DNA of 64,000 nt from Desulfobulbaceae bacterium (GTDB taxonomy: Bacteria; Desulfobacterota; Desulfobulbia; Desulfobulbales; Desulfocapsaceae): NCBI GenBank assembly GCA_019163335.1, contig JAFLKM010000002.1, positions 62,001 through 126,000 of the forward strand, in the 5' to 3' direction. The position numbers and the translations under genes are program-made. Position 1 is the first letter of the stretch, and each line of letters begins with the position of its first letter. Shown here one piece after another: positions 39,688 to 63,104 of the stretch. The notes under the pieces are model-generated. The model ran no database searches. It saw only the letters and a program-made list of their open reading frames with translations, and had not been told where the DNA came from.

Positions 39688-40458
39688 TTAGGCCATCTTT
39701 TTCAAGCTGATCGGATTTGGCGCCGTGCGCATGTACCCCTTTTCCTGAGCCACGATGTCGAGGGGAAGGCTTGCCATATCTGCAAGGTCCAATGACATTT
39801 CCTTCAGAGCCGGGCCTTCCAGTACCTTGACGTAGGTGTGGCATGCATCACAGGTGGCAATCCGGTACCCTGGTTCATCTTCCGACATGATGGTGTTGAG
39901 CTTTTCTGCATCCACGCTCTCACAGTTTGGACAGCCGATGAATCGATACGGGCCGGAGGTTCCGCAGAAGGAACAGTGTAAGCGGCGCAAAGGGCCCTCC
40001 AGGATGGAGGTGAGGGCTGACTGTGCCGAACAGAGGGGACAACGGCCATTCTCCCACTGCTTGCCGTCCAGCGGGTAGGCCTCTCGCAATGCGATGAAAT
40101 AGGGCCTGCTCAGCAGGAACAGGATCGAGGTCAGTTCCTCTTTGCTGCAAGGAACAGTGGGAAAATCAGGAAATTCGTCGAGGGGAAACCGCATAAAGTC
40201 AATGGCACCGTTTTCCAGGGCTTGACATATCGGGTCAAAATCCTCAACAGGCAAATCGAAAATGGAGGCAAACAAGCGAAAAACAGCACCCGCACTTTCC
40301 TGGGGATAGCCCTTGGCATCCATGGGTGATATGGCAGATCTCGATTGGGGAAGAAGTTCACCGATCTCGCGGTGAAATTGCTGCCATTTGGCGTAGAGCT
40401 CAAGCGGCTCTTTGAGGTGCGGCCGTTGTTCGATCAACGCCTGGGTATCTATGGTCAT
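39688..40458 (-). CDS. fdhE: Formate dehydrogenase accessory protein FdhE
   Basis: FdhE is a zinc- or iron-binding factor needed for the assembly of respiratory formate dehydrogenases. 256 residues. Four CxxC motifs are visible in the C-terminal half: CPLCSAQ, CSFCGTSG, CPNCESVD and CDACHTYVK, the typical rubredoxin-like fold. RBS TAAGGAGAACC before the ATG. A copy of the hairpin repeat lies between it and the upstream peroxidase gene. Confidence 0.9.
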   Translation of the reverse strand: MTIDTQALIEQRPHLKEPLELYAKWQQFHREIGELLPQSRSAISPMDAKGYPQESAGAVFRLFASIFDLPVEDFDPICQALENGAIDFMRFPLDEFPDFPTVPCSKEELTSILFLLSRPYFIALREAYPLDGKQWENGRCPLCSAQSALTSILEGPLRRLHCSFCGTSGPYRFIGCPNCESVDAEKLNTIMSEDEPGYRIATCDACHTYVKVLEGPALKEMSLDLADMASLPLDIVAQEKGYMRTAPNPISLKKMA

Positions 40459-40471
40459 GGTTCTCCTTAAT

Positions 40472-40541
40472 ACCTTACAGATTGTTTTCTTGTTTTTTCA
40501 TAAAAACAATCTGTAAGGCGCTTATCCCGTTCATCGGGGTT
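40472..40541 (-). repeat. Hairpin repeat, copy C
   Basis: Minus strand: CCCCGATGAACGGGATAAG, then CGCCTTACAGATTG, loop with ATGAAAAAACAAG, then CAATCTGTAAGG. The outer hairpin is near perfect. The first bases overlap the stop codon of the cytochrome c peroxidase gene. Same order as the copies at 17276, 56771 and 61057. Confidence 0.85.
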
Positions 40542-41595
40542 ATGGAATTTTGGGGGGGGTAAAGGCGATCGGCGCACCGGTCAGCCCTTCTTCGAGGAAA
40601 ATCCGCAGTTCTTCTTTTTCCAGAGAGGTAAGCTGCAGGGCATTCAGCGCGGAGTTTCCCTTGCCGCCTCCAGCGTGGAAGAATTCGATGACTTCATCAA
40701 GGGTCGCGTAGATTCCGTTGTGCATGTAGGGAGCCGTTTTGGCGATCTCTCTGAGTGTGGGAGTCCTGAATGCCTTCCAGTCCTTCTGGTCTTTGGTGAT
40801 AAGGTATCTTCCAGGATCTTCAGAGAGGGTCCGGAATTCCTCGAAATGGGAGATCTTGGCGACAAACCGACGTGTTGCTGCGATCCGTGGATCTTTCAAG
40901 TGCTCAGGGTTTTCGGGGACGTTGAGCACATGAAAACGGTCGTCCGCCAGACTAACACCGTAATGACATTCGGTGCACTTCCCTTTGCCGATGAAGAGTT
41001 CGTATCCTTTCAACGCCTTTGGTGAGAATGCTTTGGTGTCTCCGCTCAAGAAGCGGTCAAGGGGCGTATCTCGGGAGACAAGGGTTCGCTCAAAGGCGGC
41101 GATGGCCATGGCAACACGCTCCCGGGTTACATCGCCGTCGCCGAACACTTTAGTGAATTCTGCAACATATTCCGGCACGGTACGGATCTCTTCCTCCATG
41201 AAATCGAGGTTCTGGTTCATCTCAAACGCCGACATCATTGGAAACAGGGCCTGTTCCTCAAGGCTTGCTGCTCGTCCGTCATGGAAGAGAGACCGCTGAA
41301 ACGCCACGCCTATGAGCGTGGGAGAGTTACGCCAGTTGCGGGTTGTGGGATAGTTCAGCGAGATATCGATGCCGTCGCTGAAGCCCTGCTCGGGATCATG
41401 GCAGGTTCCACAGTTCATGGTCCCATCGCCGGACAGGCGCCGATCGAAAAAGAGCTTCTTGCCCAGCTCAATCTTAGCCGGTGTCTGCGGATTCTGCTCC
41501 GGGACGGGGACATCCCTGAATGGTTCCAGTTTGCCTGCCAGAAGGCCTGTGGGAAGACACAGGCCCGCCAGCAATATCCACAATAATACTCTCAT
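40540..41595 (-). CDS. Di-heme cytochrome c peroxidase
   Basis: A periplasmic enzyme that reduces hydrogen peroxide with cytochrome c. 351 residues, with a signal peptide (residues 1-20). Two heme c sites: CGTCH (about residue 62) and CTECH (about residue 210). GTMNCGTCHDPEQGFSDG and YMHNGIYATLDEVIEFF are family motifs. The gene starts four bases after the stop of the selenocysteine DsbA-like gene, with GAGGTGACGGT as ribosome binding site, so the two are cotranscribed. MauG-like enzymes also have two such hemes, but the context favours peroxidase. Confidence 0.9.
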   Translation of the reverse strand: MRVLLWILLAGLCLPTGLLAGKLEPFRDVPVPEQNPQTPAKIELGKKLFFDRRLSGDGTMNCGTCHDPEQGFSDGIDISLNYPTTRNWRNSPTLIGVAFQRSLFHDGRAASLEEQALFPMMSAFEMNQNLDFMEEEIRTVPEYVAEFTKVFGDGDVTRERVAMAIAAFERTLVSRDTPLDRFLSGDTKAFSPKALKGYELFIGKGKCTECHYGVSLADDRFHVLNVPENPEHLKDPRIAATRRFVAKISHFEEFRTLSEDPGRYLITKDQKDWKAFRTPTLREIAKTAPYMHNGIYATLDEVIEFFHAGGGKGNSALNALQLTSLEKEELRIFLEEGLTGAPIAFTPPKIP

Positions 41596-41599
41596 ACCG

Positions 41600-42196
41600 T
41601 CACCTCTGTGTTTTGTTCAGCTGCTCATCGATGATCTTTTTGAAATATTCGAAAGGTCGGTCACCAACCACCTGTCGGCCGTTGATATAGAACGTTGGTG
41701 TGTTGTAGAGATCAATGGACTCGGCAAGCTTCAGGTCAGTGTCAATATCCTTCGCATGGGCCCCTTTGTCAATGGACTCGGTAAACTTCTTGAGGTCAAG
41801 GCCCAGTTCTCCGGCATAGGCAATCAGGCTGGCTCGATCCAGCTTCGGCGAACGGGTGATGAGAATGTCGTGCATCTCCCAATACTTGCCCTGATCTTTT
41901 GCGGCCAGGGATGCCTCAGCGGCGATTCTTGCGAAATCACGGTATTTGTAGGGATAATTTTTAACCACCAGCCGGATCTTGTTGGGGTAGGCCTGGAATA
42001 TCTGTTTGACGGTCGGACCGGCCGCCACACAGTGGGCTCACTGGAAATCGATAAACTCAATGATTGTCACCGGGGCGTCGACTGGCCCCTTGGATGGTGA
42101 GTTACCTATCGGGATTTCAATTCCCTTCTCCTCTGCCGCCTGCGCTACCCCAAAGAGCAGCAACGCACATACAAAGATCAGTAGTCTTTTTATCAT
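41600..42196 (-). CDS. DsbA-family thiol oxidoreductase with a selenocysteine active site
   Basis: Read through TGA 42038-42040 as Sec53, the protein is 198 residues, typical for DsbA/DSBA-like thioredoxin-fold proteins. Signal peptide: MIKRLLIFVCALLLFGVAQA (residues 1-20). The active site reads FIDFQUAHCVAAGP where relatives have DFQCPxC, so it is UxxC. Further family motifs: VRLVVKNYPYKYRDFARIAAEA and TPTFYINGRQVVG. Starting after the TGA would leave no signal peptide and half an active site. It would act in the periplasm, reducing or isomerising thiols or peroxides. It sits between formate dehydrogenase and cytochrome c peroxidase. Confidence 0.92.
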
Positions 42197-42274: not shown

Positions 42275-42880
42275 CTACATCTTCCCGATCGCTTTTATCC
42301 ATTTTGGATGTTTCTTCCGGGCATCCTTAAGAGGCATCATCCCGTTCACCATAATCTGCAAGGTCCCTGGATTTGCCAGGGTCCCAAGATACATATGAAC
42401 CGGAACTGCGATCACCAAAACGACGAATGACACATTATGAATAATATGGGAAAGGAGCATTACGGTCCTATTATCTTGAAAGAACCATAAGCCGATTCCA
42501 GAAATGATGATGGCAAATCCGAACGCGACAACGGCTAAATAATAGAGCTTCTGGCCGGGATTGTATTTCCCCATGGGTGGAACCTTTACCTTGTGGGAGA
42601 GGTAGCCGCCTGCCACCTTGAACCATTGCAGGTCATCGGCATCGTATTCAAGGGATTCAATGAGATAATGATGCAGTGAATAAAGAAGGGAGAGCGCAAA
42701 GGCTATTCCCAACCAATTATGCACTGTTTTCATGGTATTGAACCCGCCGAACACGGAACCGATGGCGTCGACATGGAACAAAAAGCCAAATCCCGTCAAC
42801 ATCAGCAGGATACAGGAGCCGGCCAGTATTAAGTGGTTCACGATCTCGTCGGTACTTGATTTTCTTATCATCTCTACCAT
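42275..42880 (-). CDS. fdnI: Formate dehydrogenase cytochrome b subunit
   Basis: A membrane subunit with four helices that holds two b hemes and passes electrons to quinones. From the ATG at 42880 it is 201 residues. Seen: NHLILAGSCILLMLTGFGFLF, VHNWLGIAFALSLLYSLHHYL, VAFGFAIIISGIGLWFF, HIIHNVSFVVLVIAVPVHMYLG, with His residues in the second and fourth helices. AGGAGGTGTGAT lies before the start; upstream codons overlap fdnH and are not used. Confidence 0.9.
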   Translation of the reverse strand: MVEMIRKSSTDEIVNHLILAGSCILLMLTGFGFLFHVDAIGSVFGGFNTMKTVHNWLGIAFALSLLYSLHHYLIESLEYDADDLQWFKVAGGYLSHKVKVPPMGKYNPGQKLYYLAVVAFGFAIIISGIGLWFFQDNRTVMLLSHIIHNVSFVVLVIAVPVHMYLGTLANPGTLQIMVNGMMPLKDARKKHPKWIKAIGKM

Positions 42881-42881
42881 A

Positions 42882-43661
42882 TCACACCTCCTCTTCCTTT
42901 TCCTCTTCCTTGTGGGGGCCAATGGCCAGATAGTGAATCGCTGCTGCTGCAACTACACCGCCCAGACCGATTAACGAGAGTGGTTTTAAATACGTGTGCC
43001 AGAAGACCACGCTGGTTGGGATGGTTGGATTCTCAAGCATCCCGTAAAGTTTTGGTTCATCCTTGAATGCGTAGATCGTGCCCAGGCCACCCAAGTCTTT
43101 TTCGCCGTAAATTGTTTTGAAGCCCTCTTTTTGGGCAGCACTGATCAGTTCATCCCGATCCCCAAACTTTAAGGCACCGGTGGGGCAGGTCTTCACACAG
43201 GACGGTGTCATGTCAGCTGCTATACGATCGGCACAGAGATTACATTTGGACATCTTGCCATCTGCACCGTAGCGGGGGACATCAAAGGGGCAGGCGCTGG
43301 AGCAGAGTTTGCACCCGATGCACTTTTTGTGGTCAAAGGCCACGGCGCCTTCCGGTGTTCTGAATAAAGCACCAGGAGAGGGACAGATTGTCATACAGCC
43401 GGCATCGTCGCAGTGCATGCACCGCCTGCTCAGAAAGAGCCAGCGCACTGGATCTATCTGTGATGGGACTTCACTGAACTGAATGATATTAAAGGCGGTA
43501 CCGGCCAGATCCGGTGGGTTCTGGTAGGTACCGTTGTTCTTGGTCTTGATCGGGTCGAGCTGGTTCCAGGACTTGCAGGCGACCTGGCAGGCCCTGCAGC
43601 CGATGCAGTTCTCCGGTGTTACAAGGATCGCCTTGCGTTTTTTTGTGGTATCGTTTGTCAT
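42882..43661 (-). CDS. fdnH: Formate dehydrogenase iron-sulfur subunit
   Basis: The beta subunit with four [4Fe-4S] clusters. 259 residues. Motifs: CIGCRACQVACKSWN, CMHCDDAGCMTICP, CIGCKLCSSACPFDVP, and CNLCADRIAADMTPSCVKTCP. The C-terminus has a membrane helix (SLIGLGGVVAAAAIHYLA) that anchors it to the membrane. Starts 10 bases after the stop of the catalytic subunit and is followed directly by fdnI. Confidence 0.93.
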   Translation of the reverse strand: MTNDTTKKRKAILVTPENCIGCRACQVACKSWNQLDPIKTKNNGTYQNPPDLAGTAFNIIQFSEVPSQIDPVRWLFLSRRCMHCDDAGCMTICPSPGALFRTPEGAVAFDHKKCIGCKLCSSACPFDVPRYGADGKMSKCNLCADRIAADMTPSCVKTCPTGALKFGDRDELISAAQKEGFKTIYGEKDLGGLGTIYAFKDEPKLYGMLENPTIPTSVVFWHTYLKPLSLIGLGGVVAAAAIHYLAIGPHKEEEKEEEV

Positions 43662-43671
43662 GATGTCCCCC

Positions 43672-46600
43672 TTATGCCTTCCGGACGTTGACCATGAAGG
43701 CCTTCGACTCGGGTATCATTGTATTAGCGTCGCCCACGTTCGGCGTAAGCAGGTTGGCGCTGTCATAGCCGCTGCCATCCTCGGGAAACTGCCAGCCGAA
43801 ATGCCAGGGAATACCGACCTGATGAACGGTGGAGTTCATGATCTTAAAGGGTTTGAAACGTTCGGATACCATTGCGACGGCCTTGACTTCGCCGCGTCCG
43901 GAGGAGACGATAACCGTCTCTCCATTGGTGAGTTTCAACTCCTTGGCAAGCTCGATACTCATTTCCACGAAGTTCTGTGGCTGCATTTCCAGTAACCACG
44001 AACAGTGTCGCGTCATACAGCCGGTCTGCCAATGCTCTGATACTCGATAAGTGGTCCCGACAAACGGAAAACGGGCGTCGCAGGAGTAAGAGACATCTAT
44101 CTTGTCACCAAAGATCTTGATGGTCGGATTGATCCGCTGCTTGGACATGGCATTTTCCTCGAGTGGACATTCCAGAGCCTCATAATGTTCCGGAAACGGA
44201 CCCTCCACGAGGCCGGGCCCGAAAATTGAGGCGACACCGTCCGGCTTCATGATAAAAGGAAACTTTCCGCCGGCTTCGGCCATGGGAGGAGCTGGTCCAT
44301 CGGGGATATCGCCTTCCCAGACTCCTGGCTTGCCGGTTGGCGCAAGCTTGGTGGCATTCCATTTGAGGAGCTGCCGGGTTGCATCCCATGGTTTACCCTG
44401 CTGGTCCACTGAGGCGCGGTTATAGATGATCCGCCGGTTTACCGGCCATGCCCAGGTCCATCCGGGGTAGAGGCCAAGCCCGGTGGGATCTTCCTTGCCC
44501 CGTCGTTGCATCATGTTGACGGCTTTTCCATCCTTCTGGATATAGGAATTGCAGTATATCCAGTTGCCGCAAGAGGTGGTTCCGTCCGCCTGCAGAGAGG
44601 GGAAGCTTGTGACCAGATCCCCTTTCTTGCCGATGAGTTTCGGTGGATCAACCTTGGTGTCATAGACATCTTCAAGCCAGTAGCCATTAATTTCTTTGGC
44701 AATGCTATGAATGTCGACATGCTTGACCTTGCCGGCAGCATCCTTTTCCCCGTAGTTCCAGGTCAGGTTCATGATCGGATCGGAGTAAGCACCGCCTTCT
44801 TTTTTATAAAGTTCTTTGACCTTGAAAAAGAGCTCGTTGATAATCTCGGCATCGGGCAAGGAGTGGCCGATGGGTTCTATGGCCTTGTAGCGCCACTGGG
44901 CCCAACGTCCCGAGTTGGAAATACTTCCTTCTTTTTCCATCGATGAGCAGCACGGCAGCATGAACACCTCGGTCTGGATGTCCTTGGGATTCATCCCGGG
45001 CCCACGCCAGAAGGAGCCGGTCTCATTGTCGAAAAGGTTGACATTCACCAGCCACTTGAGCTTGGTCATGGCCTGGCGGGTCTTGTTGGAGTTCGCCCCT
45101 GAACAGGCAGGATTCTGGCCCCAGGCGAAGAAACCCTCAAATTCTCCCTTGTACATCTTGTCGAAAATCGTCAGCCATGAAGCGTTCATTCCCACATCCA
45201 GCTTCGGCATCCAGGAATAACCAAAATCATTCTCCTTGGTCCCTGCGGCACCGTAAGTGGCCTTGAGATAGCTTGTGATGTATTTATTGCGATTGCCCCA
45301 CCAGTTAACGCTCTTTGGTTCTTTGGTCGTGGGGGTGTTGTCCTTGATATAGGTCGCAAGGTCTACCTGGGCTGCATTTGGTACTGGGTTGTAGCCGGGC
45401 AGGATATGGAACAGAAGTCCCTGGTCGGTGGAGCCTTGGACGTTGGCCTCACCACGCAGGGCGTTGATGCCGCCGCCGGCGATGCCCATGTTACCGAGCA
45501 GAACCTGAATGATGGTCATGGCCCTGATATTCTGGGTGCCGACGGTATGCTGGGTCCAGCCCATGGCATAGCACTCGGTGCCGGCCTGGTCTGGTTTGCC
45601 AGTTGCTCCGAACAGCTTGTAGACCGCCATAAGCTTATCCATGGGGGTTCCGGTGATATTGACGACTTTTTCCGGAGTGTAGCGGGCGTATTGTTTTTTC
45701 AACAGCTGGAATACGCAGTTCGGGTTTTCCAGGGTGGGATCTTTCAGGGCAATGCCATTTTCATCCTTCTGGAAGGACCAGGTTGCCTTGTCATATTTTT
45801 TCGTCTCCGCGTTGAACCCGGAGAACAGGCCATCCAGATCCGCCGGGCCTTTGAAGTCCGGGTTGACCAGAAAGGAGGCATTGGTATAGTCAACAACGTA
45901 TTCTTTGAAGTAGAGGTTGTTGTCAAGAATGTATTTGATCATGCCGCCAAGGAAAGCGAGGTCTGTTCCGGAACGGAGGGGCGCATACAGATCTGCTTTT
46001 GCGGCAGTCTGGGTGAACCGTGGGTCTACACAGATGAGTTTCGCACCCTTATCCTGGGCGCGCTTAATCCACTTCATTGAAATGGGATGATTTGAGGCAG
46101 GATTGCTTCCCATCGCCAGGATAACGTTGGCGTTTTTCAGGTCAATCCAGTGATTTGTCATTGCACCGCGTCCGAACGACTCTGCCAGAGCCGCAACAGT
46201 TGCGCTGTGTCAGATACGCGCCTGGTGTTCTACATACACCAGGCCCCAGGACCGGACAAGTTTTTGCAGCAGGTAGCACTCCTCATTGTCAAGGGCGGCG
46301 CTGCCGATGTGGGCGATACTGTCCATCCGGTTGACCACAAATTCCTTCTCGACCATGATCTCGGTGCCATCGGGTTGCTTTTCCTTGACCTTGGCCTTCT
46401 TGACTGTCTTGAAGTTCTTGTCCCGGGAGTCCTTGACCAGACGGGCAATTCTGTCCAGTGCCCAGTCCCACTCCACTTGTTTCCACGCCGTTGCACCGGG
46501 CTCGCGATACAACGGTTTAGGTACCCGCGTCTCGTTGTTGACAAGTTGGATCACCGAAGAACCCTTGGCGCAGAGAGCACCTTCATTGATTGGATGATCA

Positions 46601-46815
46601 GGATCGCCCTCGGTATTGATAATCTTGCCATTTTCCTGGTAGACGATGATGCCGCATCCTACGGAACAATAAGGACAGACAGTCGTCGTTTGCTTGGCGT
46701 TCTTGATCCTCAAGTCCTGGGCATAGGCCTTTGCAGGGTTGAGGTTGACGCCAAGCGATGCGACCAGCACGGTGCCGCCTGACAGTTTTAGAAAATCCCG
46801 CCTTGATACTCCCAT
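43672..46815 (-). CDS. fdnG: Selenocysteine formate dehydrogenase, catalytic subunit
   Basis: Read through TGA 46210-46212 as Sec202, the protein is 1047 residues. It oxidises formate to CO2 with Mo- or W-bis-MGD. A Tat signal SRRDFLKLSGG (residues 4-14) sends it to the periplasm. An N-terminal [4Fe-4S] site is CPYCSVGCG. The active site reads VEHQARIUHSATVAALAESF; relatives have Sec or Cys with His next to it. Other motifs: NVILAMGSNPASNHP and, near the C-terminus, TGCMTRHCSWLLEMQPQNFVEMS. The hairpin GGCTCT/AGAGTC right after the TGA could belong to the SECIS element. The downstream half starting at 46161 must not be called a separate gene. Confidence 0.96.
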
Positions 46816-61157: not shown

Positions 61158-63104
61158 TTATGGAATCATCCACTGAAAATAATAGGCCTGGAGATAGACA
61201 ATAATACAAACCAGGAAGGTCAGGAACAGTGAGTGCTTCAGGGTAAAACGGAACAGGGTGCCTTCCTCGCCGACCATGCCGCAGGCGGCGGTGGCCACTG
61301 CCAGGGACTGGGGAGAAATCATCTTGCCCATGACGCCACCGCTGGTGTTGGCCGCACCGGTGAGAATCGGGTTGATGCCCAGTTGTTCAGCGGTAGCCTT
61401 TTGCAAGCCGCCAAAGAGAACGTTGCTCGAGGTGTCGGAGCCGGTAAGAAAAACGCCGAGCCAACCGAGGATTGGGGCAAGAAACGGGAACCAGTGGCCG
61501 GTTTTGGTGAAGACCAGACCCAGACAGTTGGTCATGCCGGAGGAGTTCATGATATAGGCCAGGCCAAGAACCGAGGCAACGGTCAGGGCCGGAAAGCGCA
61601 TGTCAAACAGGGTCTTGCCGGCGATTTTAGCAACATCGCCGAAACCTACGCCGCAGATCATGGCGGACAGGAAGGCGGCAATGAGGATGGCGGTACCGGC
61701 AGCGGACATGAAGTTAAAGTTATATTTTGCGGCGATCTTGATCGGCAGTTGGTCGGCTATTGCCTTGGTCAAGGCCTTGAACTGATCCTTTTCCACCAGT
61801 TTGTCCTTGATCAGGCCATCGCTCAGTTTTTTCAGTTCGTCGGATTTCTTGAAGATCGGTTCAAGGGCCTTGAATCGTTCCTCCGGCATGATTGCACCCT
61901 TGCCGGCGAGTTGCTGCTCAACCGTGGCCATCCCGGCCTCAAGCGCCTTGAGTTCACCGAGGACGGTGATTGCCTTAGTCATCTTTTCGTCGGCCTTGGG
62001 AAGGGCGGCAGTCAGCTTGTCGATCTCGGAGGTGATCACGGTGATCTTCTGCAGGCCGACCTCAGGGGTGGTGACTTTTTTGATGATCATATTGTCAAGG
62101 CCGGTGACGGGAATGACGACCATACTCTTGTTAAGCATGGTTTTGATCGAGGGGATGCCCCAGAGCAGAACCATCAGGGTGAGAAAAAGATACGGGGTCC
62201 AGGCGCGGAAGATCTGACCGCTGGTGTAGTTGTGCTGTTCTTTGGTGGCGGCCTCTTCGTGGTCAAAGACAAAGTTTGTCTTGGGTTGCCAGACGCGCAG
62301 AAGAAGAACCAGGGCAGCCATGGAGCTCAGGGATGCAGTGATGTCCGGCAGGTAGGGGCCGACAAAACTGGCTGTCAGGTACTGGGCCACGGCGAAGGTG
62401 ACCCCGCAGACGAGAATGGCCGGCATAACTTCGAGGGCCTTTTTGAATCCGGCAATAAGTACGATTACATAGAAGGGGATCAGAATTGAAATAAAGGGTA
62501 ATTGATGGCCCACCATCTTGGAAAGTTTCATCATGCCCACATCGTCATAGCCCATGACCGCAGAAAGGGCGACGATGGGAATTCCAATGGCCCCGAAGGC
62601 CACCGGCGCGGTATTGGCAACCAGGCAGACGCCGGCGGCATAGAGCGGCCGGAAACCAAGGCCGACCAGGGTGGCACCGGCGATGGCAACAGGTGTGCCG
62701 AATCCTGCCGCGCCCTCGATGAAGGCGCCAAAGCAGAAGGCGATGAGCAGGGCCTGGATGCGGCGATCAGCGGTGAGCCCGGCCAGAGAGGCGCGGATAA
62801 TCTCGAACTGCCCGCCTTTCACGGTGATGTTGTAGAGGAACAGGGTGGTGAGAACGATGTAGAAAACAGGAAAGAGACCAAAGGCTGCGCCCTGACCAAA
62901 AGCCAGTCCGGTAAGTTTCGCGGGCATTCCCCAGACGGTGACGGCAATGGCAAAGGCGGAGGCAACCGCCAGCATGGCCGCCTTGTGAGCCTTCATCTTC
63001 AGTACCGCAAGGCACACGAAGATGATGACCAACGGTACAGCGGCAACAAGCGCTGACATTCCGAGGCTTCCCCCTAAGGGGGTGTAATTTTGTATCCAGG
63101 GCAT
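61158..63104 (-). CDS. L-lactate permease (LctP/LldP family)
   Basis: 648 residues with about 13-14 membrane helices. Seen: FCFGAFIEGAAGFGTPVAIAGATLVGLGF, the family signature, and NPILTGAANTSGGVMGKMISPQSLAVATAA near the C-terminus. The middle (about residues 335-465) is a long charged, helical cytoplasmic insertion (KAITVLGELKALEAGMATVEQQLAGKG) not present in the short E. coli LldP. It takes up lactate by proton symport. The operator and promoter at 63326-63366 lie 220 bases before the start. RBS AAGGAGAG. Confidence 0.92.
   Translation of the reverse strand: MPWIQNYTPLGGSLGMSALVAAVPLVIIFVCLAVLKMKAHKAAMLAVASAFAIAVTVWGMPAKLTGLAFGQGAAFGLFPVFYIVLTTLFLYNITVKGGQFEIIRASLAGLTADRRIQALLIAFCFGAFIEGAAGFGTPVAIAGATLVGLGFRPLYAAGVCLVANTAPVAFGAIGIPIVALSAVMGYDDVGMMKLSKMVGHQLPFISILIPFYVIVLIAGFKKALEVMPAILVCGVTFAVAQYLTASFVGPYLPDITASLSSMAALVLLLRVWQPKTNFVFDHEEAATKEQHNYTSGQIFRAWTPYLFLTLMVLLWGIPSIKTMLNKSMVVIPVTGLDNMIIKKVTTPEVGLQKITVITSEIDKLTAALPKADEKMTKAITVLGELKALEAGMATVEQQLAGKGAIMPEERFKALEPIFKKSDELKKLSDGLIKDKLVEKDQFKALTKAIADQLPIKIAAKYNFNFMSAAGTAILIAAFLSAMICGVGFGDVAKIAGKTLFDMRFPALTVASVLGLAYIMNSSGMTNCLGLVFTKTGHWFPFLAPILGWLGVFLTGSDTSSNVLFGGLQKATAEQLGINPILTGAANTSGGVMGKMISPQSLAVATAACGMVGEEGTLFRFTLKHSLFLTFLVCIIVYLQAYYFQWMIP

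Follow-up and report, generated by a model that had tools for sequence, protein, structure and literature searches.

What is the role of a DsbA-type selenoprotein in a formate dehydrogenase (FDH) operon? This question is raised by a locus from a Desulfobulbaceae bacterium, in which a short gene with an in-frame TGA lies between the FDH genes and the gene of a di-haem protein. The window, i.e. the whole stretch of 64,000 nucleotides analysed here (positions 62,001 to 126,000 of contig JAFLKM010000002.1), had been described before from its letters alone. That preliminary description proposed a periplasmic selenoprotein of the DsbA type, in which the TGA stands in place of the first active-site cysteine. 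All positions refer to the window.

41600..42196, minus strand: gene of the DsbA/BdbD-type selenoprotein, 198 aa, Sec53, signal peptide at about residues 1-20, Thr-cisPro motif NTPT at 165-168
42038..42040, minus strand: in-frame selenocysteine TGA (UAHC), conserved as TGA in 16/16 relatives and in 76/76 additional loci
42008..42026, minus strand: SECIS-type hairpin, 7-bp stem with GGUCC loop, columns 15-33 of alignment A2 counted from the U of UGA

The minus-strand frame opens with ATG 42196, closes with the TGA stop at 41600-41602 and is interrupted solely by TGA 42038-42040. Its translation (MIKRLL...DFQ-U-AHC...NKTQR) comprises 198 aa plus stop. An export signal, MIKRLLIFVCALLLFGVAQA-AEE, can be read directly in the translation, in agreement with the signal peptide claimed before; no lipobox was seen on reading the sequence. 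The active site is UAHC in the window and UPHC in most relatives. The corresponding table 11 ORF has 142 aa, starts at GTG 42028 and contains neither the signal peptide nor the first active-site residue, so the earlier warning that an annotation halted at the TGA loses both signal and active site was justified. Since this ORF begins after the TGA and no NCBIfam model matches above its cut-off, the selenoprotein is likely missed by standard annotation.

The simplest alternative is that the TGA is an ordinary stop in a pseudogene or the product of an assembly error. The orthologues contradict this. An in-frame TGA is found at the active site in all 16 orthologues including the window, with identity down to 56%. 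A scan of genome contigs yielded a second collection of 80 loci from Desulfobulbaceae and Nitrospirota, with L137 (25% identity) as outgroup to the orthologous loci. Here, TGA is present at each of the 76 orthologous loci showing the site and TGC or TGT at none. All 92 orthologous reads showing the site therefore have TGA and none has Cys (81 distinct 48-nt sequences), the two sets being partly overlapping with some genomes in both. The 395 genomes of the phylum contain 13 orthologues with TGA. Five weaker stop-free matches in these genomes are other proteins or a fusion. Of these, L195-L198 were rejected as FDH-linked Cys orthologues; the exception is a fusion of DsbA and peroxiredoxin, L199, which is discussed below.

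The preliminary description had named homologues with a normal stop and no conservation beyond it as the observation that would speak against a selenoprotein. Instead, protein identity continues past the TGA in the orthologues, with about 60 invariant columns in the alignment of 16 sequences. At codons +4 to +10 after the TGA synonymous divergence drops to 0.15 compared to 0.51 elsewhere, the lowest value of 153 windows. This description had also suggested a SECIS search after the TGA and a comparison with Cys homologues. The search revealed the 7-bp hairpin, which begins 14 nt downstream of the U of the UGA, and the comparison gave Sec throughout the orthologues. Over 46 distinct sequences 87% of the cells in the stem are paired, with compensatory changes at 5 of the 7 pairs. 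The covariation score was reached by none of 500 shuffles, and sliding the partners destroys the hairpin. The stem of the window sequence has one internal C.A mismatch.

The genome encodes SelB (387 bits, cut-off 242) and a tRNA-Sec (70.6 bits, tca anticodon). The one observation in favor of an ordinary stop is the lack of a selA match in the window's genome, G000, a draft assembly of 103 contigs, despite its TGA-containing FdhA and DsbA-like genes. Of 16 relatives searched, 14 have a full-length selA and a 15th has fragments of it; several of these genes are located about 600 nt from the end of a contig. A selA gene was also not found in G020, a single-contig genome encoding TGA-containing FdhA and DsbA-like genes. 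The absence from the window's draft is probably due to an assembly gap. With TGA in every orthologue, coding conservation beyond it and a covarying hairpin, an ordinary stop is hardly credible, and it is practically certain that the DsbA-type protein is a real selenoprotein.

In Pfam the protein belongs to Thioredoxin_4 (3e-23, with the TGA inside the match) and DSBA (2.5e-18). Its AlphaFold model has a pLDDT of 89 and, among solved structures, comes closest to B. subtilis BdbD (Z 23.3, 1.7 Å, 171 residues), ScsC and DsbA proteins. The model shows a thioredoxin fold with a helical insert, UxxC for CxxC and a cis-Pro loop, as is characteristic of DsbA/BdbD proteins; T166-P167 (Thr-cisPro) are invariant in alignments of 16 and of 38 sequences. 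Together with the hairpin, SelB and tRNA-Sec, the confident model matching BdbD bears out the claim of a periplasmic DsbA-type selenoprotein.

A second DsbA-like family of about 300 aa occurs in the same genome group, and its active site has either Sec or Cys depending on the species (L019, L024, L028, L029, L030 versus L002, L018, L020, L031). Where tested, these paralogues score below the cut-off of NF041057. Because they use either residue, the strict Sec of the FDH-linked family is notable, and its persistence across two phyla suggests a need for selenium chemistry itself. Separately, L197 and L198 (G074, G228) carry tandem DsbA-like genes with UPFC and CPFC active sites, away from FDH.

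The neighboring genes of the operon are:

43672..46815, minus strand: FdhA, catalytic subunit of the formate dehydrogenase, with Sec and a Tat-type signal (RRDFLK), 1256 bits against D. vulgaris FdhA
42882..43661, minus strand: FdhB, iron-sulphur subunit, gene order conserved
42275..42894, minus strand: cytochrome b561-type FDH membrane subunit (PF01292, TIGR01583)
40540..41595, minus strand: di-haem CCP/MauG-family protein, 351 aa, signal peptide, two CxxCH, PF03150 8.7e-49
39688..40458, minus strand: FdhE-like accessory protein at the operon end (TIGR01562 / PF24860)

The order FdhA, FdhB, a membrane subunit, DsbA(Sec) and MauG-like protein, usually followed by FdhE, is found in 15/15 relatives and is conserved in Desulfobulbales and Nitrospirota. 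FdhA lies upstream of the selenoprotein gene in 51 of the 52 loci with 6 kb of flank, and a MauG-like gene follows directly in 71/74. The preliminary description had linked the selenoprotein to the di-haem protein and the FDH and had suggested a co-occurrence analysis of DsbA-like and CcpA genes; the association proved far tighter than proposed there, as it extends over two phyla. The membrane subunit varies between cytochrome b561 and NrfD, the latter occupying the corresponding position in L109. Consequently, the selenoprotein and di-haem genes vary less between loci than the membrane partner of the FDH itself. Of 58 relatives, 17 have an orthologous FdhA (>60% identity). The selenoprotein is present in 16 of these and in none of the 41 others; in the 17th genome FdhA runs into a contig end. 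Two loci deviate: L092 has the selenoprotein and MauG-like genes without FdhA in 8 kb, and L131 has FdhA and the selenoprotein without a MauG-like gene. In one Desulfobulbaceae locus a carboxymuconolactone decarboxylase/AhpD-like gene (L100:9995-10306, plus strand) is located just after the MauG-like gene. A species available in culture, Desulfoprunum benzoelyticum (L062), is among those with the operon. A DsbA-fold selenoprotein with an export signal and a MauG/CCP di-haem protein are fixed parts of this FDH operon.

The selenoprotein stop and the di-haem start codon are 4 nt apart, as stated before, and a GAGGTG overlaps the stop; gaps of 2-8 nt occur in many loci. This spacing and the overlapping GAGGTG make translational coupling of the di-haem gene to readthrough of the Sec codon probable. 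Such close adjacency, together with the DsbA/ScsC-like fold, would fit a maturation factor, with the selenoprotein forming or reducing disulfides for FdhAB assembly or for haem attachment to the CxxCH motifs of the di-haem protein. Against this, no conserved Cys beyond CxxCH was found in the di-haem protein alignment, L131 combines FDH and selenoprotein without any di-haem gene, and L199 pairs its DsbA domain with a peroxiredoxin instead. We therefore regard a maturation factor as distinctly unlikely.

The di-haem protein itself had been called a di-heme peroxidase. With PF03150 and two CxxCH it belongs to the Di-haem CCP/MauG superfamily, and it keeps the Gln/Pro/Glu residues of bacterial CCP. 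Its best NCBIfam scores are those of MauG (TIGR03791, 220.5 bits) and MbnH (TIGR04039, 200.7 bits), far below the curated cut-offs of 443.85 and 362.85. Hence, the family assignment holds, and peroxidase activity can be suggested at the level of the family only. In the alignment, Phe predominates at the C-terminal distal-ligand position, whereas Tyr is present there in a related di-haem enzyme with a solved structure; Met or Tyr is the expected distal haem ligand in this superfamily. An AlphaFold model of the protein was too poor (pLDDT 55) and was set aside. The MauG and MbnH scores could indicate an enzyme that modifies a residue of FdhA or of the selenoprotein, with the latter keeping the thiol state of the substrate right. 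Given the distance to both cut-offs and the mostly Phe residue at the position of the MauG tyrosine ligand, this is very improbable.

Protection of the FDH, as proposed before, is plausible, and FdhA offers a more specific candidate target in the form of a cysteine pair that the preliminary description had missed.

46210..46212, minus strand: FdhA TGA (Sec202), stop codon at the site in 69/69 linked FdhA showing it
44167..44169, minus strand: FdhA Cys883, by alignment the equivalent of D. vulgaris C845
44080..44082, minus strand: FdhA Cys912, by alignment the equivalent of D. vulgaris C872

Split by Sec202, the window FdhA would appear as two ORFs under table 11. It aligns over its full length with D. 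vulgaris FdhA, both allosteric cysteines being present. According to PMC11323313 and PMC13397495, the C845-C872 disulfide of D. vulgaris FdhA is closed in a low-activity, O2-stable form and open in the active, O2-sensitive form. The pair is present in 78/78 FdhAs of the first loci and in 79/80 of all linked FdhAs, the sole exception being L187 with Cys/Asn. FdhA paralogues without the module in the same genomes have Gly/Ala at these positions. A strict two-way rule between pair and module was rejected, since 79/80 linked but also 64/85 unlinked FdhA homologues (first set) carry the pair. Linkage to the module is thus nested within the pair-bearing FdhAs. Since the FdhA tree shows only about 7 changes in linkage, the association does not represent many independent events and is to be taken as support, not as proof.

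Peroxide-related genes occur beside other FDHs as well. In L199 (6679-7965, minus strand; G082:C24) one frame combines a DsbA domain (CSFC) with an AhpC/TSA peroxiredoxin, whose peroxidatic residue is a TGA (TPVUARQ). The fusion is located 159 nt upstream of FdhA-FdhB, and both switch cysteines are present in this FdhA; genes for a Fur-family protein, desulfoferrodoxin and ferritin belong to the same cluster. In the collection searched, the class of G082 is represented by one genome, and no further DsbA-peroxiredoxin fusion was found among the 395 phylum genomes save one possible partial (G211:C30:16677-17333). In 11 other FDH loci a peroxiredoxin gene lies within 5 kb on the same strand, all without a DsbA gene. 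Six of these FdhAs have both cysteines and five do not, so peroxiredoxin linkage was rejected as a marker of the pair. In L238, L243, L257, L269, L284 and L297-L301, from several Desulfobacterota families, AhpC/TSA genes were noted on the FdhA strand at a distance of about 1.4-3.2 kb, beside FdhAs that have the cysteine pair as well as FdhAs that lack it. Judged from the DsbA(Sec)-MauG module, the fusion and the nearby peroxiredoxins, FDH operons have recruited peroxide-reducing or peroxidase-like partners more than once; a DsbA domain is part of two of these arrangements.

A rival reading follows the preliminary description, namely a general periplasmic peroxide or thiol defence. Here the Sec protein would repair oxidised periplasmic thiols and the di-haem protein would use electrons from formate to reduce H2O2, the FdhA thiols being no specific target. 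The conserved CCP residues, the peroxiredoxin-type genes adjoining other FdhA genes and the Fur-family, desulfoferrodoxin and ferritin genes of L199 are in line with such a defence. Such a defence would, however, not have to be tied to a single FDH operon across two phyla, and with mostly Phe at the distal-ligand position peroxidase activity is not assured. This makes a general defence possible, albeit somewhat unlikely.

The conserved module rather suggests a dedicated redox guard or switch for the oxygen-sensitive FDH. As the reading with the best support, we propose that the selenoprotein and the di-haem protein are dedicated redox partners of the FDH. The FdhA disulfide would most likely be their point of action, and peroxide would be dealt with by the di-haem protein; we tentatively assign this reading a probability of about 0.4. 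The selenoprotein (UPHC/UAHC) would undergo fast thiol-selenol exchange with the surface residues Cys883/Cys912 of FdhA. Depending on the periplasmic redox state, it would close the disulfide, giving the O2-tolerant, low-activity form, or open it, giving the active form, while the di-haem protein would remove peroxide or pass an oxidising signal on.

Several observations argue for this redox guard. The operon is kept in 15/15 relatives, with FdhA in 51/52 and the MauG-like gene in 71/74 loci, and the selenoprotein occurs in 16/17 genomes with the FdhA orthologue and 0/41 others of the 58 relatives. The Cys pair is present in 79/80 linked FdhAs and replaced by G/A in module-free paralogues, and in the D. 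vulgaris enzyme it controls activity and O2 tolerance, as described in PMC11323313 and PMC13397495. The L199 fusion of DsbA with a Sec peroxiredoxin, the 11 peroxiredoxin-linked FDH loci and the use of Sec, never Cys, in the orthologues point in the same direction. The FdhA disulfide is the likely target of the selenoprotein. On the other hand, the pair is ancient and widespread, being retained by most unlinked FdhAs with no DsbA gene in the vicinity and shared by D. vulgaris FdhAB, so that in these cases either other proteins serve the switch or it needs none. The Cys/Asn of L187, the roughly 7 changes on the tree, L092 without FdhA and the occurrence of peroxiredoxins with both kinds of FdhA also count against a redox guard.

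A further extension is speculative and, in our opinion, unlikely: the Sec-DsbA protein would set the FdhA thiol switch, and the di-haem protein or the fused selenoperoxiredoxin would feed in the peroxide signal, resulting in a periplasmic relay from peroxide to enzyme thiol. If this were true, a CO2/formate enzyme would be shielded from oxygen by a peroxide-to-thiol relay.

Compared with known systems, the folds of BdbD from Bacillus subtilis (PDB 3eu3/3eu4) and of ScsC/DsbA proteins resemble that of the selenoprotein, but these proteins share 22-24% identity with it and have Cys in place of Sec. Their roles are in general oxidative folding or copper tolerance. The DsbG-like thioredoxin-like (seleno)lipoproteins of NF041057 (Rcas_1661) belong to the same superfamily; the selenoprotein scores 82.1 bits, below the cut-off of 190, and has no lipobox. 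The di-haem neighbor shares PF03150, two CxxCH and the conserved Gln/Pro/Glu with MauG, MbnH and bacterial cytochrome c peroxidase, and differs from MauG and MbnH in its scores below both cut-offs and, by alignment, in the residue at the expected C-terminal haem ligand.

The selenoprotein is of a known kind, since UxxC DsbA-like selenoproteins are already catalogued (form 1, PF01323, PMC13188914; family in PMC1794560), with which it shares the DsbA domain, UxxC and a bacterial origin. The available portions of these catalogues name no operon context, whereas the selenoprotein described here always has Sec, and its gene is linked to FDH and a di-haem protein. What appears to be new is the conserved setting in an FDH module; our literature search found no description of it and no publication on an FDH-DsbA-MauG operon. 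A related system is the allosteric redox switch of D. vulgaris FdhAB, in which a surface disulfide controls one of the leading catalysts of CO2 reduction; its FdhA is homologous and has both cysteines in common with the window FdhA. The accessible text of PMC11323313 and PMC13397495 names neither a physiological partner nor a dedicated thiol oxidoreductase for this switch. A thiol-selenol enzyme that is genetically locked to pair-bearing FDHs is a concrete candidate for such a partner.
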